Below are positions 23,398 through 52,429 of a stretch of DNA of 64,000 nucleotides, piece after piece (position 1 is the first letter of the stretch; every line of letters starts with the position of its first letter). Both the position numbers and the translations under genes were made by a program. The stretch is from Limnanthes douglasii subsp. nivea (lineage: Eukaryota; Streptophyta; Magnoliopsida; Brassicales; Limnanthaceae), in assembly GCA_036936605.1 (NCBI GenBank), contig JAUPFV010000004.1, forward strand, positions 93,398,334 through 93,462,333. Direction: 5' to 3'. The notes under the pieces were generated by a model. It searched no databases, had not been told where the DNA came from, and saw nothing but the letters and a program-made list of their open reading frames with translations.

Positions 23398-23438
23398 GGG
23401 TATGGCTATATATACCCAAAACGAGTTTAAGTATACCC
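23398..23438 (+). repeat. Left terminal inverted repeat of MULE-1
   Basis: Begins GGGTATGGCTATATATACCC. It matches the reverse complement of 29668-29708 apart from about four positions. GTATACCCAA words recur just inside (about 23550 and 23584). Confidence 0.9.
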
Positions 23439-23713
23439 AAAAACAACAGTTGACTTTGGATTGACTTTTTTTTGACATTTTTACCCTCCATCAGAAAATT
23501 AATATCTAAACTGCCATTAAGTAAAAAAAACTACTAAGTGTATCCTGAGTATACCCAATTCACCAAAAGTCCTATTTCGCTATGTATACCCAAACAAACA
23601 CTCTTCTTTGCTGAATTTACTATCCAAATAGTATAGTTTCTTAAAATTTTTGAAACCTAATTCAAACTTCCTAAGAAAATCAAGAACATTCAAACTAAAA
23701 CACAAAATCGATC

Positions 23714-25353
23714 ATGTCGGAAGCAGAACTAGGGATCAGCGTGGAGGAGTTGATGTCGCTGGAGAGAAGGAATGATGAATTTTCGCCGGAAAAAGAGATT
23801 GAGTCGCCGGAGAAGGAGCCATGGTCGCCGGAACCGCCACCACCGTCGCCGGCGAAGGTATTGAAGAACCAGGCGAACCATGCACCATCGGTTCCATATG
23901 CCGGAACCGATGGTGCATGGCCACGCAGCCGGTCGGTTCCACAGCCCCAGCACCACCGGTGCTGAGGCCAAGAACCGGTGGACCTGGGGCCTCAGTCCGC
24001 TCGGTTCTGAGGCCCCAGCACCACCGGTTCATGGCCTCAGCACCGGTGGTGCTAATGGCCGTGTCCGGCCGGTTCTGAGGCCTAGAACCACCGGTTTTAG
24101 GCCTCAGAACCTTGAATTTGCGCATTTTTTTTCGAAAAAAGGCCTGATTTTTTTTATGTTGTTAACTATACTTGAATGTTTATTGTGTTTTTTTGTTGTG
24201 TAACAGGGGACGGATGTCGCAAGTGGGACTGAGGCACCTTCCGCTACCGATTATAGTCATTTGTTCTTCACTACCGAGTTCTACACACACGACGCGTTGG
24301 TGAAATGGGTTACGAAGATCGGAAAACTTTATGGTATGGTTATCAACATAAGCCGGCGCGACAAAGTAAACAGCAGAAAAAATCCGAGAGTTTATTTCCA
24401 GTGTGAGAGGGGGGGGGGGGAAATATATTCCAAGGGTTGCAGAAAAAGACCGCAAACGGAAGTCTACAGGAACGAAAAAGATTGACTGCCCATTTGAGCT
24501 TCTCGGGTCAATGGTTGCCCCAGATCAATGGAAGTTAGAAGTAAAATGTGGTACTCATAACCATGACACTTCTATACATCTAGATGATCATTCTTTTGCT
24601 GGCCGTTTGAATGATGAAGAGATGGAGTATGTTGAACGAGCGACCTTCATTGGTACTAACCCCAGAGATATACTGAATGGTGTGAAGAAATTGAACGAAG
24701 ATAATGTTTCTACCATGCGAACGATCTACAATGCACGACAAAAAAATCGGGTTCTAAAGAAGGCGGGTAGGTCACAACTTCAGTTCTTGTGGGGTGAGCT
24801 TAAGTCACATAATTATTATGAATGGCATAAATCTGGTGAAGACGATGGACAAATCATTACAGATTTGTTTTTTTCCCATCATGTCAGTGTTGACCTTTTG
24901 CGCACATTTCCGACAGTTTTGATTATGGATAGTACATATAAAGTGATACGGTATGGTATGCCATTTTTCGAGATAGTGGGTGTGACGTGTACTGGATTGA
25001 CTTTCTGTGCGGCATTTGCCTTCATGTCGGGTGAGAAGTTAAACAACTTCAAATGGGTATTAGAGTGTTTGAAATCGTTGATTTCCGTTCATGGAATTGA
25101 AGAACCGCGGGTCATCCTAACCGATAGAGATTTAGCATTGATGAATGCTATAGAAGTGGTATTCCCAGAGACAACGCATATGTTATGTCGTTGGCACATT
25201 AACCAAAATGTTCAAGGGCAAACAAGAAAGCACTTCCGCGAGAAAAGTGATCATAAAGAATTTGTTAGTGCTTGGAAGAAGATTGCGTATAGTGAATCAT
25301 GTATTATTGCATTAATTCATTCAAATTACCAACTTATAACGAAAAGCCAATAA
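23714..25353 (+). pseudogene. MULE transposase, FAR1-type, frameshifted and C-terminally truncated
   Basis: Exon 1 is 23714-23857 (MSEAELGISVEELMSLE, acidic and Pro-rich). A GT-AG intron at 23858-24206 holds motif array 1. Exon 2 starts at 24207 in the same frame and codes a FAR1-like zinc-binding domain (FYTHDALVKWVTKIGKLYG; later DCPFELLGS...KCGTHNHD). A run of 12 G at 24409-24420 shifts the frame inside this domain. The MULE catalytic domain follows, with the first Asp in LIMDSTYKVIRYGMPF and the second in ILTDRDLALMNAIEVVFP, then LCRWHINQN. The frame ends at 25353 soon after SAWKKIAYSES, before the third acidic residue and the SWIM zinc finger. Excision and insertion activity is therefore not expected. 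Confidence 0.85.
23882..24111. repeat. Motif array 1 (11 units, 22-23-bp pitch) in transposase intron
   Basis: 13-mers start at 23882, 23904, 23927, 23950, 23972, 23995, 24018, 24040, 24063, 24085 and 24107 (last partial). Examples: GCACCATCGGTTC, GAACCGATGGTGC, GCACCACCGGTGC, GTCCGGCCGGTTC. Spacers are 9-10 bp and often contain TGAGGCC or its complement. An 18-bp perfect stem is formed by 23878-23895 and 23903-23920. The array fills most of the first intron. Confidence 0.9.
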
Positions 25354-25440
25354 TCATTTCATAACTAAAATAAAACATCACAAACAAGCAACAACAACAT
25401 ATTCTAAACATTAGTACATAACTTGATATAGAACAGACAG

Positions 25441-25830
25441 TTAGTCAAAATCATAACCTCCATTGTCGCTGAGAATACGCACTGTTTCCTCCTTCATGGC
25501 AATTTGAGAATGAACGTATTGTGCCATTTCCAACGACATATAGTCTGTGATCATTAAGCCAAAGGAGTCGAACGCTTCATTCCTAACTTCTGGGGGCTCG
25601 TTAAACACCAAGAACATCAGTCCACTAGTTATAGACTTGTACCTAGTGGCTACCTCCTGACGAGTACGGGATCGAGGCATTTGTCTAGATGTAGACATTT
25701 CGCCGTACATGAAATACATCATACACAAAACTTCATCAAAGAACTCATCGGTATTATCGTCCGGCCGTTTGAACTTCACAGCTTTCGCAGCCTTGAGCAG
25801 ATGAGCATCATCAAACACACTCCAACCCAT
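25441..25830 (-). CDS. Unrecognised 129-aa protein of MULE-1
   Basis: An intact minus-strand frame. The start chosen is the ATG at 25830 (MGWSVFDDAHLLKAAKAV), 71 bp from a TATATAAG box. I do not recognise the family. The product is mildly acidic at the C-terminus (LSDNGGYDFD) and looks helical, with a Met-rich middle (DEVLCMMYFMYGEM), a short Arg/Ser patch (RQMPRSRTRQEV) and no membrane segment or zinc motif. It lies tail to tail with the truncated transposase and downstream of the PMD gene on the same strand. Its start region lies between the transposase remnant and array 2. It could be an element accessory protein, for example a DNA-binding partner of the arrays, but that is a guess from position only. 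Confidence 0.6.
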   Translation of the reverse strand: MGWSVFDDAHLLKAAKAVKFKRPDDNTDEFFDEVLCMMYFMYGEMSTSRQMPRSRTRQEVATRYKSITSGLMFLVFNEPPEVRNEAFDSFGLMITDYMSLEMAQYVHSQIAMKEETVRILSDNGGYDFD

Positions 25831-25894
25831 TAAGATAAACTTCAACTACTTTAAAAGGAGAGTTTTGTGTGTTTGGTGTTGTAAGGTATGGTTC

Positions 25895-25902
25895 CTTATA
25901 TA
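25895..25902 (-). promoter_or_regulatory. TATA box of the 129-aa gene
   Basis: Minus strand TATATAAG, about 65-70 bp upstream of the ATG at 25830, with an A/C-rich leader between. Array 2 begins about 95 bp further upstream. The same octamer precedes the PMD gene and the MULE-2 transposase. Confidence 0.55.
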
Positions 25903-25996
25903 GAAGAATGAGAGTTTACATTGGCGGGAATTCTAGAGCGCGAAAAAAGAAATCGCGGGAAAAAAAACCGGGAAAAAAATTCCAAGACAAAATTGC

Positions 25997-26284
25997 GCAC
26001 CATAGGTACTGTCTTCTGTGTACCTATGGTGCACAGTCTGGTGTACCATCGGTACAGTAGACTGTGTACCGATGGTCCCATGCACCGGTCGGTACGTAAC
26101 GTGCCGGCCGGTGCATGGTACCATCGGTACATAGTCTAGTGTACCGATGGTACATCAGACCCTGTACCGATGGTACCATGTACCATCGGTACTGCCTCCT
26201 GTGTACCCATGGTGCACAGGCTACTGTACCATGGGTACGCAGTAGTGTGCACCATAGGTACCACTAACTGCGTACCCATGGTGC
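25997..26284. repeat. Motif array 2 (14 units, 23-bp pitch, paired inverted motifs)
   Basis: 13-mers start at 25997, 26020, 26043, 26066, then a compressed centre (26082, 26101), then 26118, 26141, 26164, 26180, 26203, 26226, 26249, 26272. The main form is GTACCATCGGTAC or its complement GTACCGATGGTAC. Neighbours form reverse-complement pairs whose centres change together (ATA/TAT, ATC/GAT, CAT/ATG), so each pair can fold into a 13-bp stem with a 10-nt loop. Spacers are 10 bp with varied sequence. It is placed upstream of the 129-aa gene promoter. Confidence 0.92.
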
Positions 26285-26858
26285 AATTTAACTTGTATTT
26301 TTTTTAAAAATATGTTTTCGGTTTATGGGGTTTTTTTTGACAAGTTTATACCCGAATGTTATTGTGTTTTGGTGTTATGGATTTTAAGTTTATACCCGAA
26401 TGTTATTGTGTTACTATTATAATTTTAGTTTTTGACGAATTTAATATGAAGTGAAGTACAGAAAATCGAGAATTACTAGTATAATGTTATGGTGTTTTGG
26501 TGTTATGGTATGACTTATGTTAGATCAAGTTAAGTACAAAAAATCAATAAGAACAGTAAAAGCAGTAGATAGTAGAAGTCATAAGTCATATTACAAAGTA
26601 GATGTCATAAGTCATAATACAAAACAAGATACTGAAACAACTAAGAAGTCCACAGGAATGAAAGATCATAACAACGCTAGAACAAGTCCGATGATGAGGA
26701 CGAACAACCATGGAGAGAATAGCTGCAGGACCTGATCTCTCCACCTCAGCGCACCCGCCTCCCCACGCTCGACGGGCATAGTAACAATGGAGCGAACGAC
26801 GTCTAAAAGTCTATCGTCCGTGGTACGCGGTGGGGGAGTGATAGTATGCCAACCATAC
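26285..26858. other. Non-coding stretch with small repeats; possible alternative end of the PMD gene
   Basis: The word AAGTTTATACCCGAATGTTA occurs at about 26342 and again at about 26385, with nearby GTTTTGGTGTTATGG copies. On the minus strand 26666-26896 is an open frame (YLAEYGWHTITPPPR, then a hydrophobic tail WLFVLIIGLVLALL). It could be the original C-terminus of the PMD protein in a shifted frame. Confidence 0.45.
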
Positions 26859-29427
26859 TCAGCCAGGTACCTCCAGTGACTGTCTATATGTGGCAATGGT
26901 AACTGTCAAACGATCCTCAGCAAGCAAGTGTTGACGCCAATCTAGCCATGCGCTCTCTCGCCACGTGTACCTCGCCAGATCTCCTTTCCTGTAACCCGGT
27001 CGTAGTACAAGTGGGAGTTGGGGCTCATCCTGAACCCGTCCGAACTGGCGCATAACCCGATCAGGCATGTAGCCCTCGACCGTGCTCATCATCCGCAAAG
27101 GATAAACAATAGTGCGGATCTCCTGGGCTGGAAACTGGACTCTAATGCCCTCGTATGGCTCAAATAGGACCTGTTACAAAGCATTACAACAATTAGATTG
27201 ATTTAAAATCCTAACACTTAATATCAAAATTGTAATGGGAAACAAATATTTAAAAACTTACATCTGACTCCTTCTGATCAGCAAGGAGAGTACGAATGAC
27301 CGATTTGGGGCGGATGTTTTGCCCAACAATCTGCTTCGGCAGCCACTTCACAATCCTAGGCTGCCTCGCTACGTGGTCAGCATTCTCGGAGGCACTAAAC
27401 GCTGGGAAGTGGTCATAGATCCAACAATCAAGCATAGCTACAAAACCATAAAGGTTATGCTTCGATGCTTTCGAAGCATCACCTAAACCACGGAACAGGA
27501 ATGCCAATGCACTCGTACCCCACGCTATGTCCCACAACCCAGAGTCCATATTGGCTAACCCGTAAGTGTAGTCAGCCTTCACGCTCTTCTGACTAGTATC
27601 CGCAAAAATAGTGCAACCAAATAAGAACATAAGGTATGCTCGTGATACCTGGCGGATAGTCGCATCATCAGTCTGCTCGATGTAGCGCCCCCTGGTGAAA
27701 GTCTCCCTCAGCCACTTTATCTTGAAGCCAACGCCTCTGGTGGACTGTATCTCTGTGCGGACCTCATCCACTGTCAGACCTAACATACTAGCGTAGTAGC
27801 TGTATGCCTCGTCACGTGGAGCCGTGACTACATCAAGTGTCCGACCAACTACATGGAGACCTGTAATGCAGCTGACATCATCGAGCGTAATCGTCATCTC
27901 TCCAAATGAGAAATGGAAAGTGTTGGTCTCCTGATGCCAACGCTCAACAAAAACCTCGTCTAAGACGGAATGTGTGAAGTACTGAGGCAGGTGGGCTATA
28001 AGAGGACCTAAAGGAGTCCGCGCCAAAAATCGCTGCACATCTGGCTGAGCAGTCAAGTCCTACATACGTAGCACATTATAATGTGCCTGTACGCCCAGTG
28101 TAGTGCGACCCTATAAATTAAAAACAAAGTCAGAACATAATAATAGAAAAACCTTAGAGTAGACGTTTAATAATTAGGTACTTACCTGTCCGATGAAGAC
28201 GTGGTACGCCTCATGCTCCTTGTAGTCAGGAAATAGAGGGATCTTGTTGCATTTCAGAAATGCAAACGTCTTTCGTTGCTCCTCGGTGTGGATGGCATCT
28301 ATGTGCTCCTCGTCAATCGTGTCCTGCTCAGGGTCCCCAGTGGCATCCACCCTGTCGCTAACAGGTGGTGGATGTGTAATAGTATGCGCAGGGGACGCAG
28401 CTCTGCGAGAAGGAGAGGGAGGTGGTGGATCACTAGCACCGGGAGGTGGTGATCTATGTGTATGCGATGACGACGTCTCTCGTCGTGAGGACCCTCCACC
28501 TCTGATATCAATCGCCTCAGTCGCTATGGCCTTTTCCTTCCTCTGGCCATGCTTGATTCGGCGCAAAGACCGATCAGTCCGTATCCGTTCCTCCTCCTCC
28601 CTAAGACGAATAGTCTCAGAGTCATCTGGAGTATCTCGTCCGCGCTTGGCATCGCGGACCCGCTCATCCTCAACCGCGCGAACAGTCTTAATACTCTTGT
28701 CTGGCGGTGGTGGACGTGACCCAGGGGGGTACGCCCTGGATCGTGGAAGACGTCGCTCCTCCACTGCGTCTGACCTACAAAAATACAAAACAAAGAAAGA
28801 AATTAATAACACTAACATATAAAATTTAAATCAACAACACTCCTATACGTATGGTGAAATTTGAAGTTTTTTTATTAAAAAAAATACCATACGAGAACTT
28901 TTGAAACCCAAAAATTAGAGTTTTTTTTAAAAAAATTAGGGTACCATAGGTACCAAAGAGGGTGAACCGAGTGGCACGAGAGCTAGTGCCGCTCGGTTTC
29001 GGCACTGTGTGCCGAACGACACAGGGCATTGTGCCGCTCGGCACACAGATGGTGTGCCGCTCGGTACACAGTTGGTGTACCGAGCGGCACACCATCACGC
29101 ACCGATGGTGCGCCTTGGGCAGCACCATCGGTGCGTATGCCTAGTACGCTCGGTACTGGGCATACGCACCGATGGTGCTGCCCAAGGCGCACCACCGGTG
29201 CGGCGCCGGCCATTTTCCAGCCGGCGAGTTGGCTGGAAAATGGCCCAAATAATCATCCTAAACCTACCCTAAACCCTAATTCTCTACCTAATTCTATCCT
29301 AAACTCAAAATTAAACCCTAAATCTAACCAAAAACTAAAATTCATACCTAAAGCTAACAAAATTAAGTAACAAAATTAATTTGGGGACTTACGTAGGAGG
29401 CGGCGGAGGGTTTTTGTTCTTGACCAT
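26859..29427 (-). CDS. Plant mobile domain (PMD, aminotransferase-like) protein of MULE-1
   Basis: Spliced minus-strand gene. Exons are 29427-29393 (MVKNKNPPPPP), 28774-28186, 28059-27262 and 27170-26859, all joined by GT-AG and in frame, giving about 577 aa. For exon 3 the nearer acceptor at 28110 would include a TAG; the acceptor at 28060 avoids it. Residues 1-200 are charged and Pro/Arg-rich. The PMD follows with marks such as FVERWHQETNTFHFSFGEMTITLDDVSCITGL, and the C-terminal part has MPDRVMRQFGRVQDEPQLP. PMD proteins are found both in transposons and as host proteins (MAIN/MAIL in Arabidopsis, linked to silencing and genome stability); the biochemical role is unknown. The frame stops at 26859 after SLEVPG, where relatives seem to continue, so a late frameshift is possible. 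Confidence 0.8.
28941..29201. repeat. Motif array 3 (12 units, 22-23-bp pitch) in PMD intron 1
   Basis: Units start at 28941, 28964, 28986, 29009, 29031, 29054, 29077, 29099, 29122, 29144, 29166 and 29189. The left part uses 14-mers of the type GTGCCGCTCGGTAC / GTACCGAGCGGCAC with 8-9-bp spacers. The right part uses 13-mers GCACCGATGGTGC and relatives. It lies entirely in intron 1 (28775-29392) of the PMD gene. Confidence 0.9.
29099..29201. repeat. 43-bp inverted repeat (hairpin) at the end of array 3
   Basis: Arms 29099-29141 and 29159-29201 are reverse complements with a single mismatch, including the spacers and not only the motifs. The 17-base loop has its own 5-bp AGTAC/GTACT stem. The transcript of intron 1 would fold into a long hairpin. 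Confidence 0.92.
29208..29245. repeat. 15-bp perfect inverted repeat
   Basis: GGCCATTTTCCAGCC (29208-29222) and GGCTGGAAAATGGCC (29231-29245) with an 8-base loop, directly after array 3. Confidence 0.9.
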
Positions 29428-29593
29428 AATGAAGGAGGAGGAGGAGGAGGAGGAGTGGTGGTGGTGGTGGTGGTTCGCTGGAAAAATTAAGAGATAAGTG
29501 AGGTGAGATTCTAGAGAGAAGTGAGAGGTATGAGTGAAGTGAGAGAAAGTGTTGGTTTAAGTGGAGTAGATGAAGTTAGTAAAAAAAAAATGG

Positions 29594-29601
29594 CTTATAT
29601 A
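29594..29601 (-). promoter_or_regulatory. TATA box of the PMD gene
   Basis: Minus strand TATATAAG, about 107 bp inside the right end of MULE-1 and about 167 bp upstream of the PMD ATG. The leader between is GA/CT-rich with GGA and GGT triplet runs (29431-29472). Confidence 0.55.
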
Positions 29602-29667
29602 CCCACAAAAGGGCATTTTTGGAAAAAATTGGGTATACTTAGATCACCTTTAGGTATACTCAAAATT

Positions 29668-29708
29668 GGATATACTTAAACTCGTTTTGGGTATATATAG
29701 CTTGACCC
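29668..29708 (-). repeat. Right terminal inverted repeat of MULE-1
   Basis: Reverse complement begins GGGTCAAGCTATATATACCC and shares ACGAGTTTAAGTATA with the left end. Confidence 0.9.
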
Positions 29709-29717
29709 TAACACAAA
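29709..29717. repeat. Target site duplication of MULE-1, right copy
   Basis: TAACACAAA, exact copy of 23389-23397. Confidence 0.9.
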
Positions 29718-30057
29718 TTAAATCATATCAATAGATGACATCTTACCAATCGAAAATTAAAACTGACAAAATAATCCGAAATCAGAAGGGAAGGCCTTTA
29801 AATCTGAAAATTAGAATAAAATGAAGAATACACTTAAGCATAAATTTAAGGGTTTAAACCAATTAGTAATATTTATTAAACAATAATCATTTGAAAAAAA
29901 GGTGAAATAGTTATGATACAGCAAATAAGTAATAAATATGTACTAAATGTATCAGAAAACGTCTTCTGCGGCCAGAATTCTGTCGTCGTCTCCGTTTCGC
30001 ACATTATCCATTTTCGTCATTGCCAAGTTGCCAACTGCGTGGAAGAAGAGGACGACA

Positions 30058-33000
30058 ATGGAACCTGCTATGTACTTTCCTAACAAACAATACCACACTT
30101 CACTATCTCCATTTCTAATCTCTTCTTCTATACGATACAACTCACTAGCTTCGTCATCTTTGCTAAACCGCTCGATCGCATTCACCAACGATAATCGGTA
30201 CCGTAGTTGCTCTACAAGATTCGTGAAAGATAGAGTCGAAGTAGGAATCGAAAACGACGGAAATCGCGAACCGGAAGAGGATAGCAAAAACACCGAGACG
30301 ATCGTATCGGCTTGTTTAGTAGGGTTAATTACAGGTATCGGTGTTGTTCTCTTCAACAACGGGGTTCATGTAATTCGAGATTACTTTTGGGATGGGATTC
30401 CTTACCGAGGTGCTTCGTGGTTAAGAGAGGAACCGTTTGAGTCCAGTTGGTTGCGAGTCATCTGTGCCCCCGCATGTGGAGGCTTGATAGTGAGCTTTTT
30501 GAATGTGATACGAGAAGAAGTCGATAGTGTTGACAACGACGACGATGACAACGATGATGCTTGGCTCGATCGAGTAAAGGCTGTTTTGCGGCCTTTATTG
30601 AAGACAGTAGCTGCTTGTGTCACCCTTGGGACTGGGAATTCTTTGGGGCCTGAAGGTCCCAGTGTGGAGATTGGAACTTCCGTAGCTAAGGGAGTCAATA
30701 ATCTCTTTGGTAAAAGCCCCCGGACAAGATTGTCCCTGCTTGCTTCGGGCTCTGCTGCTGGACTGGCTTCTGGTTTGTGGAGTGATCCATATTACCTAGT
30801 ATATTACCAAACTGTTATCACGTGATTCAGTTTTATCTTTGTTTTGTGTTGAACCAGTTACTAAATATGGCAAAACCATAAAGTTTTTGAGTTCAAGTAG
30901 TAGAAAAGTTGGTCAGTACAGTTGTTTTGTGCATTGTAGGTTTCAATGCAGCTGTTGCTGGGTGCTTCTTTGCAGTTGAGTCTGTGCTGTGGCCATCACC
31001 GGCTGACTCATCTGTATCTCTCACAAACACGACTTCCATGGTTATCCTTGGTGCAGTAATTGCTGCTGTTGTTTCCCAAGTAGGCCTTGGAACCGAACCT
31101 GCATTCAAGATCCCAGAATATGACTTCCGCTCTATCGGTGGTAATTCTTTCATTCCTTTCTCTTGTTAATCAAATTTTGTTTTGTTTATCATGCTACTGT
31201 GGCTTTAGTAATAATAGGTACTGTATATGGACTGTGAAGCTATTGACTTATAAAATAGAAACTGGTTAGAGGTAGATTTTATTAATGCTTTGAAGTTGAA
31301 CCTAAACTCTGAAGACTTTATTCTAAGAGCTGATCTTGTTGTCAGAAATCCCGCTATATCTGCTTCTGGGTATGATATGTGGTTTGGTGTCAGTCGCCTT
31401 AACTAGATGTACATCCTACATGTTGGGGGCTGTTGATAATGTTCACAAGACCGCTGGAGTACCAAGGGCTGTGTTCCCTGTACTAGGTGGCTTAACTACT
31501 GGAATCATAGCCTTGATGTATCCTGAAATCCTCTACTGGGGTTTTCAGAATGTTGACATTTTATTGGAATCTCGGCCGTTTGTAAAAGGCCTCTCAGCTG
31601 ATCTCTTGCTTCAGCTGGTTGGCGTGAAGATAGTTGCGACCTCACTGTGCCGAGCCTCTGGATTGGTTGGTGGCTATTATGCCCCATCCCTATTTATTGG
31701 TGCAGCAACAGGAATGGCGTATGGAAAATTTATTAATCTTGCCGTTGAGCAATTAAATCCAGCAATTCATCTTTCCATCCTGGAAGTGGCATCCCCGCAA
31801 GCATATGGTTTGGTAATGTCCCCAATACCTTGTTGTTATTTCACCTTTCTGTTAAGTGGCAAAGTAATATAAAGTTTTATGGTTTGGAATAATATATTTT
31901 TCTTTTGTTTCATCATCTCACTATATGGTAGTTTAATGTGTCTAATATGCTTACAAGTGCTCATTTCAACTAAGAATGCATTAACTTCAAGTTTTTTATT
32001 TATGGTGAGTACAATGTTAAGTGATGGTAATAGTAGCTTCTGACTAAAAACACAGAAGATAATTCTGAAATGCTTTTAAAATGAATGAAGCACAGTCTAG
32101 TGGACATGTCTCAATATTAAAATCCAAAAAGTATATGACAGCTATAAATGCTAAGGGGAACGTTATAGGCCATAGTTACGAGCCCTGAATTTATTATGCC
32201 CCTTCAATAGCCTGGTTGCAACTTTCATGACTTCTTTTGGGACATTGATGTAAAATTGAAAATATAAAAGGTCATGGAAATTATAAAGATGATAAAAGAA
32301 GTTCTAAAGAGGGTATCAGAAGGTAAATAACTACTGTAAGCATGGTGGAGAGATCCACAATTTCTAACACAATAGTTTAATATATAATGTATAGGTTGTT
32401 AAAAAATTTAGGGAAAGCTTCAAGAGTTAAGTGATTTTTCTTTTTTGTCCCTGTAGCAATTATATTGTCTAAATGAACTGATTAATTTATTAATTTTCTC
32501 ATTGTCAATAGTAAAAATCTGATAACCCGGTAGTTGACTCTGTATTGCTAGACCAGAAGTTTTAATAATATACATTTTAGATAAGCGTTATAATGCATTT
32601 GGTTATTCATCATTGAAAATTTAAAAACTTCGACATTAGTCTCATATGAGCTCTATCACAGGTTGGAATGGCTGCTACTCTTGCTGGGGTGTGTCAAGTT
32701 CCTCTTACGGCAGTTTTACTGCTTTTCGAACTTACACGAGATTATTATATAGTTTTACCCTTACTGGGAGCTGTTGGTATGTCATCATGGATTACATCTG
32801 GACTAACAAAAAGAAGAGACGCTAAAGAAAGCAAAGACGTCAAAGAAAGAAGCAGCAGTAATACAGCACCATTACCTCAAACATCGTCCTCCGATCTAGT
32901 TGAGTTATCTTCCAGTTATAACGAGGAATCTTATGAGAATAACCTTTGTGAACTTGAGAGTTCTCTCTGCGTCGAGGATACCAATTCTCAAACTAAAGAG

Positions 33001-37680: not shown

Positions 37681-37689
37681 TCTCGAGTT

Positions 37690-39388: not shown

Positions 39389-39397
39389 TATTTAAAA
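39389..39397. repeat. Probable target duplication of MULE-2, left copy
   Basis: TATTTAAAA; the right counterpart at 52430-52438 is TATTTAGAA (8 of 9 identical). In AT-rich DNA an 8/9 match is only moderate evidence; it gains weight from the similar ends next to it. Confidence 0.55.
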
Positions 39398-39512
39398 GAG
39401 AAAATTAGACATAAATACCTATTCAAGTACCAAATACAAAAGTGGTATTCATTTTAAACTAGTTTCATAAAATATTTAGGAATAATAATTTGGACAAAAA
39501 TACCCTCTAGGG

Positions 39513-39520
39513 TATAAAAG
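39513..39520 (+). promoter_or_regulatory. TATA box of the ULP1-like gene
   Basis: TATAAAAG, 115 bp inside the left end of MULE-2, followed by a CT-rich leader. The first ORF begins at 40480, so a long leader or leader intron with four motif copies (40129-40302) lies between. Confidence 0.5.
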
Positions 39521-40479: not shown

Positions 40480-43400
40480 ATGATTAAGACGGGCGTATTC
40501 AACATGTCTGGCTTAGTCAGTATAAACAACCTTTTAAGACGGGATATAATTACAGCAGAACACATAGAAGCTGCAAGAGACACCATGTTCTATATGTTTC
40601 TGAAAACATCGTTCGACGTAAGGAACGAGATTCTGAAGTTGAAAAAGTTCCACAACCTGATCGAGGAAATTTGTAGTTTTTACGATGTGAAAATGAAGGC
40701 TTTCAAGATAGGTCGTAAGTATGTTAAGCTAACTCCAAAGGATGTGAAGGCCATATTTGGGCTGAAACACGGGAACGAGGAGATGCCTATGAATCAAACA
40801 GAAGCCTTTATCGGTCGGTTCGCTGATAAAGCTAAGAATGATTTGATGTTAATGAAGAAATAGATTTTGAGTCCCCGCACAAGGAGCGGGCCGAGAAACG
40901 ATAAATCAGTGTCTAATGCATTGATAAAGGTGAACGAATTCTCGAACTTGTATTTGTTTTGAATTTTTGTTGCATCATATTAATATGATATTATGTTTTA
41001 TATGTAATTAGAAATGTCATCATAATCTATCTAGCAATGTCATAATAAGAGTATTTGCTTTGAATTGCTGTTGCAGCATATTAGTATGTTGTTGTTTTTT
41101 TACATGTACTCAGCAATATCATCGTAGTCTATCTAGTAATATCATAATAGGAGTAACTGTTTTGATTTGTTGTTGCAGTATATGAGTATGATGTTATTTA
41201 TTTTCTAGGAATCGATAGAGAAAGTAATAAGGGACGGAGGGGAGGACCAGGCGAAGAACGTTGCTCGTGTGTTGATACTTTCCATATGCTCGACACTGTT
41301 GTTTTCAGTGTCAGGCGATGTAGTCGGCTGGATAACAGTATTCTACATGGAGGATCTCGAGAAAATAAACAACTACGACTGGTCCAGAGCTATAGTTGAA
41401 AAGCTGCAGAAGTCACTGGACAAATGTATTAAGGCCAGGAATCCCGATAGAGTGACCGGATGCGTTGCTCTTCTATTTGTAAGGACGATTCCTTATGTTA
41501 TTACGTTAGTTTTTAAAACCATATTTGAATGTTGTGTTATTTTGTATGCAGCCCTTTTTGATGGAGCACAGTTTCATCGACGTTGAAATACCAAGACCAA
41601 ACATAATCCCTAGGTGTTATAAGTGGTGGGGATTGGAGGCGAACAAGTCAAATTTTGAAATGATCGAGATGGTCAGCCAACTTAGAGACGCGCAGGTATG
41701 ATAAATATGATTTGGTAGCTGATGGTATTCCTACTAAGTATCTAGCAATGTTTGAATTTAACTTATCTAGCAATATATCATAGTATAACCTATCTAGCAG
41801 TGACATAGAAGCCCTAAATCGCAACCACTTGACTTTTATTATCTAGCAACTGCATATTCAAAGCAATCGCAATCACTTGAACCTGAGTAGGTAATAATAG
41901 TAATTCATAATTCACAACCATGATTAAATTGTTGTGAGGCAATCACATTTGCATATCTAAATGTCTATTATACTATCAAATTGTATTTGTTAGGTTATGG
42001 ATGATGAGCTATCGTTGACAGAGGCTGAATGTCAAGCTTTTAGAGAAAATGAATTAGGGGGGAGGAACTCTGAAGGTGCTGCAGAAACCAGTGAGCCAAG
42101 GAGTCGGAAAAGAAAGAAGTCTGTTGCAAACAGAACTGTAAGAAGATAGAAGAAATAGTTCCATGATGAGGCTGGAACAAGTCGTAAAATAAGTTTGAAC
42201 ATTGAGATTGAGGACAACACAACACCGCCAGCAGCAGGAGAGAATTATGATGTTACGCTGCGTGAATTCATGACGAAGAAGAAGTCGACAGTCGGTGCAA
42301 CAAAAATCAAAAGGTTGAAAAAGAAAGAGCACCGTATGTCGAGTATTCCAAGTTTCGGAAGACTGTCACAGTCGGTGTTACATGACAAGCGGGTGCTGAA
42401 AAAGCACAACAGGTTGCACCGATTGAAAGTTGAAAACAAAAAGTTGAAAATGGCGCTTGAACAGAGAATCCAACAAGTGAGTATTCGTATGCTTTTTACG
42501 GATAAAACATGTATAACAAATCACGTATACTATTTAACATGTTTGTTTGACACGAGTTGAAGGACTGAAAAAAGAGTTAAATCAGTTGAAAGCGAAGCTC
42601 AAAGTAGCAGAGGACACTATAGATGCTGATAATGCCAAAATTCTCAACACCTTATCAATGCCGTTTTGCCGTGAAGATAAAGAGGATACTGAACCTGTGG
42701 CTGCAAATATTAGCAAGAAAGTAATTAAGAAAACAGTTGTTTACCAATGTCGCAGGCATGGATTTGTGCCGAAGAGGAGCCTAGAAGATTCGAAGACCCC
42801 AATAATAACTAGCAAAGGATGTTGAGGTGGAGGAAACAACAGAAGAACATAAAGAGTTTGAGACAGTTGAGGCAAACGAGAATGAAGGATCTGAAGAGGT
42901 GAACTTAGAAGCAGCTGCAGGGTTGGTTGACTCTGAAACACCTGTTGAACCTAGGCCAGAGACTACGTTAGAGGATGGTATTGTTGTAGATGTCGTTGGG
43001 AAGCAGATAAGGCCTACCCTACTTGTGTATGATGCTAATAATGAGAAAGGGTATGTGGATGCAAAATTATCACCCTAACTCATATTTTCGGCGTACAAAC
43101 TAAAGTTGTCTTAGCTGAACAGGGACACAAAGTTGGATCTAACGAGGTTGATGGACAAAAGTTAGTGGAGGATACACGTGAGCCGTTAAATAGAGGGTGC
43201 AACGATGAAACCAAAACTACGGAACAACAGGTGGAGAACCCAGAAAATATAAATGAATAAGGAAATGTAGAGACGGGTCAGAGTAAAGAAGAAGCTGACA
43301 AACATGACGTTGAAACCACTGTAGATTCAACCAAAGACATTGGAAAAGCACCTATTGGGGTGGAGAATGTAGCCCCAGAAGTCCTAGTGCCTGAACCTAG

Positions 43401-45866
43401 CGTTCAGGATGTGGTGGAGAATGTGGCTGAAGATGTAAGTGGATCTTATAATCGTTAAGATTCATCAATATTTAGTATTATGTTTTGGCATGTTTTGAAG
43501 TATTACAAGTCTAGGTTTGATAATGACTAAGATGGACTGTTGTTTTTTTAAAATGTTGTTTGACAATGTAAGAAAACTTTAAGACTTGAAATGTTTTTTT
43601 TGCATCATGATTTATTTTTATACGATAGATATATGTCGCAAAAATCGAAATCATTAAGAGACGATGTCTAGCAAACACTGGTTAAATTAATAGTAGCTGA
43701 ATCAAATAAATTGCATGAAGTATATAGGTGCAATTGCAACCTTGTACCGGGTTGAGATTTTTCATGAAAATCTATATAGCTGTATCTAGCAATGTCAACT
43801 AGGTGTAAATCACAACCATTTTAATAACATATCTAGCAATGAGTCCTGCACTAAAATCGCAATGCATATGGGTAACTTCATTGTCTTACATTATTAGGGA
43901 ATGCAAATAGCAAGGCTGGAAGGAAAGCGTCAATATACTATACCATGGTATTGAATAAGCAGCAAAGTGTGAACTACTATCACAACTAGTGTCTCCCGTC
44001 AAGGTTATTCCAATTCGTAACGAAGAACAGTAATCCGCAACAAAGACTAAAGTTATTACGCATGATGAAAAAGTAAAACAGGTCGGGGGAGATATATCTG
44101 AAAACCTGCAGATAGGGGCAGTTAAGTATGCAACACCCCTACAAGATAAAGTAGCATCTAACACACTAACTGTAATTTCTGTTATACCGTTGGCTAACGA
44201 ATTTTTTGAAGACTGCACGCAATCCTTTTACGAAGAATGTGGCAATGCTGTAGAAAATTCAAATGAGAAGAGACGTACTTTTGGATCCATCGAGGAAGGT
44301 CAAACAAATCTCGATGTAAGTGGATCTTTTTCTTACCAACACCGACATAAGTAATGTTAGGGAATTAATTTGATACATTACAGGTGCACGCTGATGAGAT
44401 CCCAAGGTGGAACTTACTTAGTCAGACGCAGGTGAGACAACCACAAGTTGCGTACGAAGATTGGCCGAAGCGTACAACTACGACGCAACTCATAGATATT
44501 AGTGAGTATAACAAGGTGTTAAAAATAAGCAGCGAATAAGAACAAGAAGATCCAGAAGTATGGTACTTGCCAATGTCGGAGTTCTCATATAGGATTTTCA
44601 TTAGTGTGAGCGAGATAATGGAACTCCCGAACCAAACTGAAGTAGACTTCAAGGTAATATTCTGTTCAATCGCAGCAACAATGTTAACTTAAAGGTATCT
44701 AACAATGTTAAATTAATATATCTAGCAATGTCTAATTAGTCCACCTAGCAATGTTACAATAGATCTAGAAATGTCCAAGTATAGTATCCACCAGTAAGGA
44801 ATCTAGCAATACCATCTACGTTGTCTACGTATACAGTGTTGTTTCTTGTTTTTAATCATTGTCATTTACATATTTTAAGCAATTAATTGTTAATTGATAG
44901 ATCATAGATGCTTGGATATATAAGCTGCTCAAAGATGAAAATTGGAGAGTCTATATGAAAGGGTTTGATGATAAGTATTCATTTATGGTCAGCGCTATTC
45001 AAATATCTAGAACTGCAACTGTAAGTGCATAAGGTATTATTTATGTTATATTTCAACAATTTACTTCCTATAGTAATGTTAAAAAATTACAGGAAACACT
45101 GGCTATAAAGGAAGATATGTCAAACATTATGGATAATTTTTTTGAAACAATGAAACCACACACATATGTTGCCCTTGTTCCTCTTTGCACCGTTAACAAG
45201 CCCGACGTCAACCATTGGACGTTGCTCGTTATTGATATCGAGAATGGGACTGCTAGTAGCCACAACTCACTATTTCCATGGAGCAAACACATTCCAGATA
45301 AGACGAGAAATACAGCCGATTGCCTCATAATAAACTCTATGATATAAATATATTTATTTATATCTTGCAATAGCTACCAACCTAATGTTTGAATGAATGT
45401 TACAGAATCAGCAGTGTACGCTATTGCAAGTGTTTCTGGCCATATTTTTTTAGTGTATCTAGCAATATGATATTAGACTATATTTCCCGGTATCTAGCAA
45501 TGTCTCATGAATGTATCTAGCAATGCCAGAAATTGTACCTAGCAATGATATAGTCGCCTAAATTGCAATGTAATAAGGGGTTCTTTGATTTTGCAGTTGG
45601 CCTATTGCATGAAAAAAAAATACATACCTGCTGTGAAGGTTGGATACAAAATCAAGACAATGAGAAATATCCCACAACAGGAAAATGACAACCTTGACTG
45701 TGGGATTTTTGTTTGTGAGTACGCGAAATACATCATTCAGAAATGATATGTTCCTAAAGAATATGGAAAAGATATGCAAGCTAAAAGAAGAGATGAAATA
45801 TTTAAGCATTTCCTCAATGATTCAAACACAAACCGACGATCGTAGTGTTGGGAGAATTTTTTTTAT
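40480..45866 (+). pseudogene. ULP1-like cysteine protease (peptidase C48) gene of MULE-2, decayed
   Basis: Multi-exon plus-strand gene. The N-terminal domain at 40480-40863 is typical of plant transposon ULP1 proteins (FYDVKMKAFKIGRKYV then LTPKDVKAIFGLKHG). The next exon at 41211-41490 has MEDLEKINNYDWSRAIV, and the one at 41550-41696 has PFLMEHSFIDVEIPRP. Acidic and coiled-coil linkers follow at 42000-43440. The C48 catalytic part is in exons 44901-45019 (IIDAWIYKLLKDENW), 45093-45346 (NHWTLLVIDIEN) and 45596-45746 (QENDNLDCGIFVCEY). His and Cys of the triad are present; the Asp position reads Asn (SSHNSL). Stops at 40861, 42147 and elsewhere show decay. Such proteases cleave SUMO or ubiquitin-like tags; their use to the element is unknown. 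Introns carry the TATCTAGCAATGT motif. Confidence 0.8.
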
Positions 45867-46117
45867 GTAATTTTTTTTTTGGGATAAGTGTTGTGTAGTT
45901 CATTTAAAATTAGATGCTAGTATTAGAGGATTACTTGGAAATGTAGTAACAATCGTAATGTATCTGCTTGTGTTAAGGGTGTCAAAATTGTTGTGTAATT
46001 CATTTCTACCAATGTCATTTTTATAGTATTACTATCCATTAAGGATGAAAAAATATTTTGCAAACCGGTTATACAGCCACCTACAGTTGGCAATCAAAAT
46101 GTAATTCAACATTGATG

Positions 46118-46759
46118 TATCTAGCAATGTCTAGATACGTGTATCTAACAATGTATTGTCAAGGTATCTAGAAATATACTGCCATTATTATTGTATGAAA
46201 AAATTTAAAAATTATTCTGCATCTAGTAATGTCCATATAACTTATCTAGCAATGTTATACTGCTGTATCTAGCAACGTCGTTATAACTTATCTAGCAATG
46301 TTATACTGTTGTATCTATCAATGCCCGTATAACGTATCTAGTAAGGTTTACTGATGTGTCTATCAATGTCCATGTAACTTATCTAGCAATGTTATACTGC
46401 TTATCTAGCAATGTCTTTATAAGATGTCTAGCAATGTTACGCTGCTGTATCTATCAACCTCGTTATAATGTATCTAGAAATATTTTGATGCTGCATCTAG
46501 CAATGTCGTTATAATGCATATAGCAATGTTGTGACGCTGTATCTATCAATGTCGTTATAACGTATCTAGCAATGTTCTGATACTGTATCTAGCAATATCG
46601 TTATAATGTATTTAGCAATGTTTTGCTCTGTATCTATAAATATCGTTATAAGGTATCTAGCAATGTTTTGATACTGTATCTAACAATATCGTTTTAAGCT
46701 ATCTAGCAATGATATGCTGCTGTATCTATTAATGTCACATGTGGCTTATCTAGCAATGT
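46118..46759 (+). repeat. Dense array of TATCTAGCAATGT (24 phased units, 23-bp pitch)
   Basis: Unit starts: 46220, 46243, 46266, 46289, 46312, 46335, 46357, 46380, 46402, 46425, 46448, 46471, 46494, 46517, 46540, 46563, 46586, 46609, 46631, 46654, 46677, 46700, 46723, 46747. Three more are at 46118, 46142 and 46165. Steps are 22, 23 or 24 bp. Each unit is a 13-mer plus a spacer of about 10 bp. Spacers alternate between a TATACTGCTG type and a CGTTATAACG type, giving a 46-bp higher-order unit. It lies between the ULP1-like gene and the acidic ORF. Confidence 0.95.
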
Positions 46760-47140
46760 AAAATCTTAGTAAATCACAATGATATACTTATATTGGACCA
46801 ACTATATTAATGCATTGCTAGACAAATTTATTGGGAGACAAGTACATTAAATGAGATCAAAATGACTGTTAACTACATCCGTCCGTAATTAAACATATAT
46901 GTTTTTATCCTATTTTTTAACTTGTTAGTTGAAAATACAAAGGTAGATGAGTTGAATCATTACATGCATTAACTAGATGTGTACAATCAAATGTCTGCAA
47001 ATAATTGCATTTGCTAGATTGGACATAGCATCGGGCATTGCATTTCACTATAAGTAGGGGATGAGAGTTTAGGTTATTCATCTAACACCACTTTGCAAGA
47101 AATCATCTAACACTACTTTGCAAGAACACCACTTTTGAAA

Positions 47141-47542
47141 ATGACCCCTTCTTCCCCAGTCACAGAAAGGTACTCATTGGACGACGACTGGTGTTCCAAC
47201 TACTAGCTAGACAACAAGGCATACAAGCGTAGAACCATTTCTGAGTAAGCGTCAGACGACAAGGATGACTGCTCAGGTTGGTCGTCCAAGTGAGAAGAAA
47301 ACTACGCTTCATGGGACTCATGGTCACTCGATGATGGCTACGAGTCTTACCCTGAACAACTTCCAAAACGGAAGCGACGAAGGGATAGCTGGGAGTCTGC
47401 TAACGGAGACGACGATGATGAAGATGAAGCCGGCGATGAGAAGTTGGAAGACAAAAAGGATGAAGAAGAAGAAGAATAAGAAGAAGAGGAGGAGAAAGCT
47501 GAAAGGTCTGATGAGGAGGAGGACGAAAACGATTCTGATTAG
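47141..47542 (+). pseudogene. Small acidic ORF of MULE-2 with four in-frame stops
   Basis: A 133-codon frame from ATG 47141 to TAG 47542, broken by four internal stops (NY-stop-LDN, SE-stop-AS, SK-stop-EEN, EEEEE-stop-EEE). It is otherwise coherent: Asp/Trp/Tyr-rich middle (SLDDGYESYPEQLPKRKRRRDSW, basic patch included) and a long Glu/Asp-rich tail ending DENDSD. The reading holds across the stops without frame changes, so it was a real gene until recently. It is the third gene of the element. Function unknown; acidic tails are common in chromatin-associated proteins, but that is only suggestive. Confidence 0.6.
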
Positions 47543-48628
47543 GTTTATGGCAGTTCAAGCAGTATCATTTTATTTTTAGTAGATTTTTTATGTTTTGATG
47601 GGCTATAAACAAAACCAACCCTCTGAGTAGTTCTATTTTTTGGGAGGGTTGTTGAATTGGGCAGTTGTACTGCCATGAATGATGTTCTAATCTTATTATG
47701 ATGTTTGCTTTTTTTGTGATCTATATTAGTTTACATGTTGTTGCCATTTTAACAGTTTCACTAAATATTAGAGAGTAAGTGGTTTAATGAAGCAGTTGTA
47801 AAGGAAGTTAAAAAACACAATCGCAATGTAAGCACCAAAATTAACTAGTATATCACAATATCATGTAAGACATATATGACAGTGGCTTTCTAATTCCCCC
47901 CCAATATAACAGTTGGCTATCTCCAAATGTCATTCATGGGCCTACACCAATGTCATAATGGGGTTTTTAACTAGGGTATATAAAAAAATCTAGGAATGTC
48001 AATTAGTTTAGCTACCTATGTAAATGTATCTAGCAATGAGGTATAAAGCATATCTTGCATTGTGACCATTCTTTAATCTGACATATGAGTTTATCAAATC
48101 TAAATAAGGTGTATCTCTACCAATTTGATATTAACCTTTAAGTCGCAAGGATAATATGTTATATCTAGCAATGTTAGAATTGGATACCCATGTATTTCAT
48201 GTTACTGGAATGTTCATCTCTGTAAAATGGAGTATCTAGCAAATTCATATCCACGTATCTAGCAATGTCATTTTAGACTTACAATCGCAAGGGTATTACA
48301 CTGTATCCAGCAATGTAGCATGAGAAATTTAATTTTAATGCAACTACCAATGATATAACAAGTATCTAGCAATGTCACCATAGCCTATCTAGAAATGTCA
48401 AACAAGAGTAAAGAATATAATTAACGAGTCAAGGAGACGTTATATGTAGCAATGTTAACAGTTTTAAAACATACAAATCGCAAGATAACGAGTGTTTATC
48501 CAAGGATATAAAAAAAACAAAAGAAAACAAACTTAATTCTACAGGTTTGTTATATTCAGATGGAGCATTGCAGGACCTCCTGTTGTGTTCTGATTTGAAA
48601 CAACGACCACACCGAGACTGGGTGGTGG

Positions 48629-51042
48629 TTACCTCTCATTTTGATGGAATACGTTTTTTTCTCGACCCTCCCGCTCGTCTTTTAACGTTCGGTGGATTAA
48701 CCAATGGCTCTCCATCATTTTTATGGTAGTAGCTTCACCAAAATCTGTTATAGCCGGTATGTTAAAAGAATAACTGGACCTGAAATTTGCAGCAGTGAAG
48801 AAGGGCTCTACTAAAGTCATCGGATCTTCCATTAAAGATACTATTGCAGCAAATGCATGTGGGTATGGGAAACATTCTTGCTGCCAAGAACCATATGTAC
48901 ATTTGAAATCAAGGATGTTTACCACCATTACTGGGTCTGATAAATCCTAAAAAAATGGCAGAAGACTTGCGTACTAACCACGTTCGACCGCACTGTACAT
49001 TCTCTTTAAATAGCTTGTCAAACTCGGGGCATAATTAGGTGTTCCAGCTTAGACCCTCTGATAAACGTCTAGACATCTGAGTCATAAGAAGAACTTTAAT
49101 CCTGTCGACCAATTCCACTATAGGCAGATTGCACAATTTTTTTATCTGCGCGTTGAACGATTCCACAGCTGTTGATGCCATTGCCCCATACCATTTGCAT
49201 TTGACGTATGCCTGAGCATACTTTTCCAGGTGGCAAATTGTTTAGAAATTTGGCGATACGATCACCCCTTGGTGCTGAAACTATGCTAATCGTTCGTTAA
49301 AAAGGTCCAATGTCGGGGCATAAGCACAACTCTTAAACATCACTAGCATATTGTTTCCATGGACTCTGTTTGTGTGTTCAAGAGCTTTATTCAAATTCTG
49401 AACTAGATGGAATAAGTGTGGTAGTCATTAGGATATAGAGTTGCTACAACGTTAATAATACCAGCATGACGGTCTCAAATAAACGTTATCTGGCGCCCTA
49501 GCAAATGCGGTTTTAGACTTTACAAAAACCAAAACCAATTGTCCGAGTCTTCACTACCAAAAATCCCAAAAGAAATGGGAAGTAGACCTGTAGCAACACG
49601 TAATATTACATTTGTTTCCAGGGTTCCACAGAAAAGTTGCAGACAGAAAACATTACTGGATTGTTAGATTGAATGACCATAAATCCCAAGTTAGATACAA
49701 CCTATCTAGCAATATCTAAAGTAACAATAAAACTCAATCCAACACTTTTGAATGACCTTATATTGAAAACACGAGACTAACCTATCTAGCAGCCTAAATC
49801 TACCAATCTAGCATGTTGGGATGTGTTTAAAAAAACACATAGGCAACAATCGCAATCTAATAAAGCCAATCTAGAAATATTTGGTGATGATATATGAGCA
49901 AAACCAGAAACCACATATCTAGCAACATGTAAACTAATAGATGGACTAATTGTTGTTGCCATCCTTTGCCACTGCTGAGAGAAACACCCCATCATGCTTC
50001 CGTGTTAGATGATTTCCGTCAACGTACAATAAAGGGCGGCGCAAATGAAAACCCTGAAAGCACGCGCCGAACGCTATAAAACACCCTCGGAAAACATTAC
50101 CGGGTGTTAAATCCAAATGACAGTCCGTTGTAATATCAAGAATCTTTAATCATTTGAAGTAACCTTTTAGTAATCTGAAAGAAGTATTGCTATCTCTAAA
50201 TACTACATGCCTTTCCTTTTCTAAAGTATTCCACGATAGACGATAAGAATTGTCTAAATCGTAGTCTTTCTTGATAGAGGACTGTATAGTTTTAGCTGTC
50301 ACACTTTAACAGTTCCTAAAAGATTATGAATCTCATCGGCAATCAAATCAGATGAAAAATGACTTCTCTTCTTTTTTGTGAATACATGACTGCAAGTATG
50401 GGTATTAACAAACCTCTTTATGGTCATTAAACCGATTCTAGAATCATTTGAAGTATAGAGCCTCTATTTGCACTCGTCTAAATCTTTGTTCACACAATAA
50501 ACTATGATCTTTCTAAATGTATTATGCATGTACTTAAAGGAAAAACTGTTCTCTAATGCATACAAGGATAAGGATAACCTTAGACCTGCAGCACCATCAA
50601 CAAATGACTGACCAACACCGACGATAGCTTCGACCCATCCAGTTATAACAAGATGCCTTCTCTTGAGGGTTGAAATAACTAAACAATTACTACTTTCACC
50701 ACTAGTTTGTTGGTTATGGAGGATTTTTCGAAAAGTTGAACAGGCTGTTTACGTTTAATTGCAGACCCTTTATCGATCACTTGTTCTTCGATAACAAAAC
50801 TAACACTCTTGAGATGCTCGACATCAAGGTATACTTCCAAACCAATAAAATCTTGTGTCGTTATTAAACAAACAATTCTTCTGAGCACCACAAGAATAAC
50901 TAATGGTGCAGTTGCCTCTAACAAGATCCTGCCATGTGCTTTCGACGTACTGTTGGAGAGCGTCAAATGATTCAAATTCGGACAACAGAACAATAGTTGT
51001 TTTGTGACCAAATTTGAAATTGCAAACTTTGGGTTTCGACAT
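48629..51042 (-). pseudogene. MULE transposase (MURA-like, SWIM type), decayed
   Basis: Minus strand. It starts at 51042 (MSKPKVCNFKFGHKTTIVLL). The first catalytic Asp is near 50020 (FAPPFIV in one frame, YVDGNHLTRK in the other). A part around 49500-49560 reads PISFGIFGSEDSDNWFWF, followed by the second Asp in DRHAGI near 49475. The SWIM zinc finger is at about 48850-48910 (FKCTYGSWQQECFPYPHAFAAI, where the second Cys of Cys-X-Cys is Tyr). The C-terminal block FFTAANFRSSYSFNIPAI fits the family. Stops and shifts separate the blocks, so no active enzyme is expected. Motif copies at 49690-49925 lie in a probable intron. It runs convergent to the other two genes. Confidence 0.75.
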
Positions 51043-52272
51043 ATACTACCCTGCATTGTAGAAGATTGGGTTAGTTTGTTGTAGGGAAATATAGAAAGCA
51101 TAAATGTGTTACAGAAAAAATCTATCTATCTCGTAATTAAACCAATCTAGCAATGTCTCAAAAGTGCAATCACAATATAAAAAAACGAACATCTGGTAAA
51201 TCACAATGTGTGTTAAGACTAGTAAATCACAGTGTCTATGCGTAATCTAGCACCTACTGTTTCTAAGTTTCATAAGGAATGTTCATCTCCAACAATGTTT
51301 GTACTTGTTGACGCTGCAAATCGCTATCAATCATGTACAAATCTAAATAACCACAGAAATACACACCTAGCTAACAATAAACCACACACTTTTAGAGGCA
51401 AATCACAATGACTATACTGATATCTAGCAATGATTACACAAAACGCAACGACAAGTATCAGTGGCAAGTAAAAACGCAAGGACTATAGCTAATGGTGCTT
51501 GTATCTAGCAGTGTAAGTATTCAACACAAAAAATGCAACGACAATAGAAGACTCAACCAAACTAGCAACGACAACATAAAAAAACTCTTAAATCACATCC
51601 TCTTCTCTCAGACTGAAAAGAAAATAATCACATCCTGTTTGCTCGGACTGAAAAATTGTAAATGCTTACCGGAAAGTTACAGAATAATATATCGCTCGTT
51701 AATCGACCAGAACGCTAAACAAAACAAAATCTAAACATTAAAAAATGATTAACATACATGATTTTGACTAGTTCGATCTAAGTTTGAGCTGGAAAAACGA
51801 AAATGGAAAAACTACCGGCGAGCAGTACGTAACAAACCTTTAGAGTGACTTCAGCAATGTCAGAGGTTGAGGAAGAAACCTGGTTACCGCTCTGGCCAAT
51901 AGCTATAAAATCTCAGGTTCTCGACGGGATTAAATCTCAGGTTATGCTAGAAGCTTGTTTACAGGTCGGGGGAACAGATTATCGCCGACGGTTTTGATCT
52001 CCGGTGCTTGAATGTGGTCAGTTATGGCCGGTAAATGGTGGTTTCAAAAGGTGAACGGTTTTTGGGTAGGATCGTCGGTGGCTAACGGTGGTTGCCGCCA
52101 AGAACCTGATCACGATAACAAATTTTCTAACCAATAGACCCTTCTTGGAAAACAAATATTTTGTTAGGTTAGGAGAGAGAGAGAGGAGAGAGAGAGAGTG
52201 ACGGCTGGTCATATATTCAAAATTCAAATTTCTTGATTGGATGAAAAATACCTCATTTTTCACAAAATAAGA

Positions 52273-52280
52273 CTTATATA
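52273..52280 (-). promoter_or_regulatory. TATA box of the MULE-2 transposase gene
   Basis: Minus strand TATATAAG, about 150 bp inside the right end of MULE-2, driving inward. The same octamer is used in MULE-1. The start codon at 51042 lies 1.2 kb further, which leaves room for leader introns; motif copies at 51140-51510 lie there. Confidence 0.45.
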
Positions 52281-52429
52281 CTAGATTGAGGGTAGTTGTG
52301 ATATTAAAAAGAAATTAGGTCTTGAAAGGGAATTCTTTTATTGAGGTTGGTATTAAGTGAGCATTAACCCATTTTTTGGTACTAATAACTAATATGTTTG
52401 GCCAATTGGTACTTAGTATGTCATTTTCC

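Follow-up and report, generated by a model that had tools for sequence, protein, structure and literature searches.

We analysed a window of 64,000 nt of Limnanthes douglasii subsp. nivea (GCA_036936605.1, contig JAUPFV010000004.1, positions 93,398,334-93,462,333 of the forward strand) that holds two Mutator-like elements (MULEs), each examined as a single copy. MULE-1 carries a gene for a plant mobile domain (PMD) protein and MULE-2 a gene for a ULP1-like protein. Both have multiplied a private word of about 13 bp outside their coding sequence, at a pitch close to 23 bp, and their accessory proteins are, on sequence comparison, homologous in one domain. The predicted structure of this domain in MULE-1 resembles VANC21, an accessory protein of the VANDAL elements, suggesting that related factors might read both words.

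Private word arrays of MULE-1 and MULE-2

The features of MULE-1 are as follows.

23398-29708, no strand assigned: MULE-1, PMD-bearing Mutator-like element with terminal inverted repeats (TIRs) and a 9-bp duplication
23714-25290, + strand: transposase gene remnant (exon 1 23714-23857, intron 1 23858-24206, exon 2 from 24207)
23882-24097, no strand assigned: array A1, 10 hand-placed units within the first transposase intron, mean pitch 22.6 bp
25444-25830, - strand: open reading frame (ORF) of 129 aa, uninterrupted
25997-26284, no strand assigned: array A2 of 14 units, usual spacing 23 bp; lies some 165-455 bp upstream of the ORF of 129 aa
26860-29427, - strand: PMD gene (exon 1 29393-29427, intron 1 28775-29392; PMD in frames 27250-28059 and 26859-27173)
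28941-29201, no strand assigned: array A3, in PMD intron 1; 12 hand-placed units, mean pitch 22.5 bp

MULE-1 is 6.3 kb long, with TIRs of 44 nt that are complementary at 91%, and is flanked by an identical duplication (TAACACAAA) at 23389-23397 and 29709-29717. Its gene models and splice sites were set by eye, and its coding sequence was called by hand. The transposase matched the Pfam family MULE (4.8e-28) and, on a typed join, gave a weak match to FAR1 (0.005, below the cut-off). A frame change occurs at a G run (24400-24420), and the C-terminal part was not found (25290-25353), which makes autonomy of this copy unlikely. The PMD gene (Pfam 3.6e-43) is separate from the transposase gene and lies on the opposite strand. 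At 26700-26900 (- strand) the frame of its last exon reaches a stop and another frame continues to a hydrophobic C-terminus, which could reflect a frame break or have arisen by chance. For the 129-aa protein, neither a homologue search nor a Pfam scan returned a match, and single-sequence folding was uninformative, giving no confident fold. A TATATAAGG box-like sequence is found upstream of its ORF.

The word of MULE-1 is a symmetric dyad of 13-14 bp, GNRCC-N3/4-GGYNC, repeated in three arrays at a pitch of 22-23 bp. Counting cores of 3 and 4 nt together, exact dyads number 28, and none of them (0/28) falls in hand-called coding sequence. With the 3-nt core, 22 exact dyads lie inside MULE-1 versus 4 across the remaining 57.7 kb, two of the latter in a decayed array at 21448-21615 described below. 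When one mismatch was allowed, 31 dyads were counted in MULE-1 and 26 outside, the expectation for MULE-1 being a mean of 4.9 and a maximum of 12 (200 simulations, first-order Markov). Within the arrays, 17 of 25 intervals measured 21.5-23.5 bp, and 21 of 25 lay no more than 1.5 bp from a multiple of 22.6. These dyad counts, the coding overlap and the interval statistics were obtained unsupervised; the array unit centres were placed by hand at the visible phase, some of them on imperfect dyads.

Each of the three genes, as modelled by eye, has one array close to its 5′ end. A1 and A3 are both about 0.5 kb from their respective ends of the element, A2 is central, and the outer 480 bp contain no exact dyad. 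The arrays come in different flavours, GAACC/GCACC in A1, GTACC in A2, and GTGCC and GCACC in A3, and the dyads alternate in orientation, their asymmetric core being found both ways round. Between arrays, the dyads are 62-70% alike versus 32% for random 13-mers, and the spacers, at 32-34%, are at the random level; this comparison is partly circular because the unit centres were hand-set at dyads, and, like the unit-core count, it omits two off-phase A2 units. Spacers are more alike within than between arrays in A1 and A2, not in A3. Single-strand folding predicted very stable hairpins for A2 (z -22) and A3 (z -24). The spacers add to fold stability beyond the dyads, as 0 of 60 spacer shuffles matched A1, A2, A3 or the decayed array in each case, which points to array growth by inverted duplication. 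CpG content was considered as a sign of low methylation and dropped as not distinctive (observed/expected 0.67 in A1, 0.72 in A2, 0.99 in A3, 0.89 in MULE-1 as a whole and 0.70 in the window).

MULE-2 comprises the following features.

39398-52429, no strand assigned: MULE-2, VANDAL/KIU-like element with a 9-bp duplication (TATTTAAAA/TATTTAGAA) and degenerate TIRs
40128-51514, + strand: copies of TATCTAGCAATGT, 60 forward (2 mismatches or fewer), most closely packed at 46118-46759
40480-41625, + strand: PMD/DUF1985-like domain, N-terminus of the ULP1 gene, containing an in-frame stop
44540-45850, + strand: ULP1/C48 peptidase-like region (Pfam Peptidase_C48 1.3e-10, exons joined, X at stops)
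48560-51045, - strand: transposase remnant (Pfam MULE 2.4e-4 on joined pieces)

With ends that had been chosen by eye first, the duplication agrees at 8 of 9 positions, and the score of the degenerate TIRs was equalled by 0.3% of 2000 random pairs. Exons (about 6.1 kb) were set by hand. The N-terminal domain and the C-terminal ULP1 region were treated as one long, decayed gene, an assumption based on exon order and on the two-domain protein P0122 introduced below. The presumed position of the catalytic Asp is Asn in the HNSL sequence of MULE-2 (45180-45290); P0122 has YNSL. The transposase match, at 21.9 bits, is under the curated cut-off of 27.6.

At up to 2 mismatches, TATCTAGCAATGT is present in MULE-2 in 60 forward copies and 1 reverse copy, and 0 times in the rest of the window, with a Markov expectation of 0.54 on average and 2 at most (50 sequences). 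At 3 mismatches the contrast blurs, with 86 copies inside the element versus 21 outside. None of the 60 forward copies lies in a hand-called exon. Intervals are exactly 23 bp in 22 of 59 cases and 22-24 bp in 28 of 59, 23 bp being typical of the dense array, where tandem expansion is evident. At 35 dispersed sites conservation is confined to the 13-mer, at 1.1-1.8 bits versus 0.7 or less outside it. The word is spread over most of MULE-2, whose outer 480 bp hold no copy with 2 or fewer mismatches. It is directional, keeping one orientation throughout an element whose genes run in both directions, which argues that it is probably read in DNA, not RNA. Folding of 291 bases of the dense array gave no unusual structure (z -0.1). 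The double word had no match in viral and prokaryote genome contigs, a search that is uninformative for a plant element.

The original prediction held that the two MULEs fill their non-coding DNA with private arrays of unlike words at a common pitch near 23 bp, and the concentration of exact and near copies in their own element, the exclusion from coding sequence and the intervals bear this out. The further claim of a single architecture stands for the pitch and fails for the type of word, a symmetric alternating dyad in MULE-1 versus a directional word in MULE-2. The shared pitch is real and may be a coincidence; it was dropped as a meaningful feature because there are two cases and 23 bp does not correspond to an integral number of turns of the helix.

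Relationship of the accessory proteins to each other and to VANC21

Among the matches listed for the MULE-1 PMD protein, many of the named homologues are called MAIN-LIKE. When the joined MULE-2 gene was used as query, P0122 of Rhododendron vialii was the one significant match (7.3e-8, 7991 scored candidates); in this protein Pfam detected PMD (2.4e-5, under PMD's cut-off) and C48 in the same chain. With a PMD-like and a ULP1 part in one protein, P0122 links PMD to the architecture of the KIU elements. The MULE-2 N-terminus aligned to it at 29% over 264 aa (E 6e-20 in a single comparison). We then used an alignment of 33 PMD proteins (protein alignment A1), consisting of the window protein and 32 of 120 listed homologues, with 211 found, and restricted to the main PMD exon. 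A hidden Markov model of these 33 proteins detected the MULE-2 N-terminus at 1.1e-6, versus 1.7e-3 for the best of 500 shuffles, and hhalign aligned their profile over 190 columns with a profile built from two sequences, those of MULE-2 and P0122 (probability 94.5%, E 7.8e-8). A DUF1985 match was obtained for 23 of the 33 PMD proteins when E values up to 10 were allowed, the best being 2.9e-4. These alignments indicate that the N-terminus of the MULE-2 ULP1 gene encodes a domain homologous to the MULE-1 PMD, so that the two accessory factors, originally pictured as unrelated, share a domain.

The structural model of the MULE-1 PMD aligns to VANC21 in complex with its target DNA and has the VANC fold. 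The parallel with VANC that had been drawn from the arrays is well supported. The function of PMD, in transposons and in MAIN and MAIL1, has been called unknown (Ikeda 2017, PMC5418596; a 2021 review). The tie between PMD and the fold of DNA-bound VANC21 provides a direct hypothesis, namely that PMD proteins read DNA words, and the MULE-1 dyad is a candidate for such a word. Modules of PMD proteins and DNA motifs that counter Polycomb silencing are reportedly the subject of a preprint.

A literature search retrieved no paper joining DUF1985 with the plant mobile domain, and among publications since 2023 none combined any two of VANC21, a crystal structure, the plant mobile domain and DUF1985, nor was a paper for structure 9lnj found. 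Papers covering VANC, MAIL1 and transposons draw, in their accessible parts, no sequence or fold relation between the two proteins. As far as these searches show, the arrays of a PMD element and the structural link between PMD and VANC are new; a PMD-VANC comparison may already have been published.

Possible readers of the words

We consider it fairly probable that each MULE has, or once had, its own anti-silencing factor of one shared fold that reads the element's private 13-bp word. This fold would be common to PMD, DUF1985 and the part of VANC21 crystallized with DNA. Each factor would recognize the word of its own element, multiplied in introns and gene-upstream DNA, and once bound would remove or block DNA methylation, thereby keeping the element's genes expressible. 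In MULE-2, the directional word would be read by a KIU-type VANC protein, the type with a ULP1 domain, through the described VANC mechanism (PMC13317346). In MULE-1, we infer from the fold and the arrays that a stand-alone PMD protein would act near the 5′ ends of the three genes; as its word is a symmetric dyad, this reader would probably be a dimer.

Several observations weigh against these proposals. Pfam assigned PMD alone to the MULE-1 protein, with no DUF1985; the MULE-2 domain matched DUF1985 at 0.026, below the cut-off, and gave no PMD match at E values up to 1. Identity between the MULE-1 PMD and VANC21 is 10%, and PDB sequence searches with protein alignments A1 or A2 did not recover VANC21, so that the residues with which VANC21 contacts DNA are possibly not kept in PMD. 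The long TIRs of MULE-1 are unlike the degenerate TIRs of VANDALs. Hairpins are long in the MULE-1 arrays and absent from the folded part of the MULE-2 array. The MULE-2 accessory gene is broken, as are the transposases of both elements, and activity is consequently not readable from these copies. In addition, the host PMD proteins MAIN and MAIL1 promote transposon silencing (PMC5418596, PMC7156037).

More tentatively, PMD, DUF1985 and VANC might form one superfamily of motif-reading chromatin factors. PMD-MULEs would then represent a second, independently diversified anti-silencing system, in which a dimer acts on a palindromic word, and the silencing-promoting MAIN and MAIL1 would be relatives of transposon anti-silencing factors. 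If true, element-specific anti-silencing would not be restricted to VANDALs, and a host silencing family would share its origin with a transposon anti-silencing family.

The span covered by the original prediction also includes the host gene between the elements. This gene (29947-33411), directly beside MULE-1, is presumably chloride-channel-like. On the other side of MULE-1 lies the decayed array.

21448-21615, no strand assigned: orphan array, decayed and related to A1, on the 5′ side of an ORF1 remnant resembling that of a long interspersed nuclear element

The orphan array is 1.8 kb left of MULE-1, outside any recognized MULE, and has a pitch of 22 bp. It is 67% like A1 over 153 bp (64.0 bits; 500 Markov sequences reached 31.1 at most) and keeps the exact core in 3 of 8 hand-placed units. 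The adjacent ORF1 remnant gave weak DUF4283 and zinc-knuckle matches. As AT9TSD1, which is not a VANDAL, carries VANC6 words (Hosaka 2017, PMC5735166), the orphan array may have hitch-hiked in a similar way, or may be what is left of an older MULE.

Four other explanations of the arrays were weighed. It is unlikely that they are transposase binding sites comparable to those of TNPA in En/Spm, serving transposition or autoregulation and not anti-silencing. The similar distances of A1 and A3 from the ends of MULE-1, the weak FAR1-type DNA-binding match of its transposase and the finding that maize MURA itself reduces TIR methylation (PMC10398659) would fit such a role, but A2 is central, the MULE-2 words extend across the greater part of MULE-2, exact dyads and MULE-2 words (2 mismatches or fewer) are lacking in the terminal 480 bp of MULE-1 and MULE-2, respectively, and PMD is predicted to have the VANC21 fold. 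We regard as improbable that the 129-aa protein, for instance as a small helical dimer, reads the MULE-1 dyad in place of PMD; its ORF is intact while the transposase is broken, and A2 is located just upstream of it, but neither a homologue nor a family nor a confident fold was found for it, whereas PMD has a structural relative bound to DNA.

The stability of the A2 and A3 hairpins, to which the spacers contribute, is compatible with arrays that act as RNA or DNA hairpins, through foldback transcripts that yield small RNAs or through cruciforms that affect transcription. This appears very improbable, given that the folded part of the dense MULE-2 array is unstructured, that hairpins are a by-product of alternating palindromes and paired spacers are explained by inverted duplication, and that self-derived small RNAs would be expected to silence the element. 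Lastly, the arrays might have no element-encoded reader, having arisen as neutral expansions (tandem or foldback) or serving as sites for a host transcription factor. Tandem expansion in the dense MULE-2 array, the spacer likeness within A1 and A2 (not A3) and the location of the orphan array outside any recognized MULE are in line with this, but the 13-mer alone is conserved at the dispersed MULE-2 sites and the MULE-1 dyads persist where spacers are random (with hand-set unit centres), and we find such an origin hardly credible.

Comparison with known systems

In the CACTA element En/Spm, repeated short sites in subterminal position are bound by the element's protein TNPA. The two MULEs resemble En/Spm in having repeated short sites and differ in the placement of these sites and in the type of element. 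Activation of Spm by TnpA is accompanied by demethylation (PMC10398659). Among host proteins, MAIN and MAIL1 are PMD proteins linked to a short DNA motif, DOWN, and to gene expression (PMC7156037, PMC9899485), an association comparable to that proposed for MULE-1. The DOWN motif (CATGCAGTTT, from the MORC1 promoter) differs from the words of both MULEs and has no exact match in the window.

Both MULEs resemble VANDAL21/Hiun and VANDAL6, the elements of VANC21 and VANC6, in carrying a dense private short word in introns and intergenic DNA (Hosaka 2017, PMC5735166). The words of these VANDALs share one orientation, a property found in MULE-2 only, the MULE-1 dyads being alternating, and VANC21 and VANC6 are DUF1985 proteins (PMC5735166); MULE-1 has PMD and not Pfam DUF1985. 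Exact VANC words (YAGTATTAY or AGTTGTMC) number 0 in MULE-1 and 2 each in MULE-2. The KIU (Kaonashi) VANDALs encode a VANC with a ULP1 domain (review, PMC13317346). MULE-2 shares with them the combination of a PMD/DUF1985-like N-terminus and ULP1, the degenerate TIRs and the directional arrays; unlike them it is decayed, and its 13-bp word is not given in the literature compared. MULE-2 fits best among the VANDAL/KIU-type elements, a kind that has been described, as a decayed member.

MULE-1 is closest to the PMD-MULEs of grasses and Amborella, which likewise hold PMD within a MULE (Ikeda 2017, PMC5418596). In those elements PMD is fused to the transposase, in contrast to the separate and oppositely oriented gene of MULE-1, and motif arrays, of which MULE-1 has three, are not mentioned in the accessible part of that paper (PMC5418596). 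The same authors had already raised the possibility that PMD proteins carried by MULEs counter silencing, an idea repeated in a 2021 review. Of the undescribed system originally predicted for PMD-type MULEs, the arrays of the PMD element are new as far as the searches show; the anti-silencing idea and the MULE-2 kind had been put forward before. MULE-1 stands apart as a new variant in its long TIRs, in having a gene of its own for PMD and in a symmetric motif whose hairpin-forming arrays lie near the 5′ end of each of its three genes.
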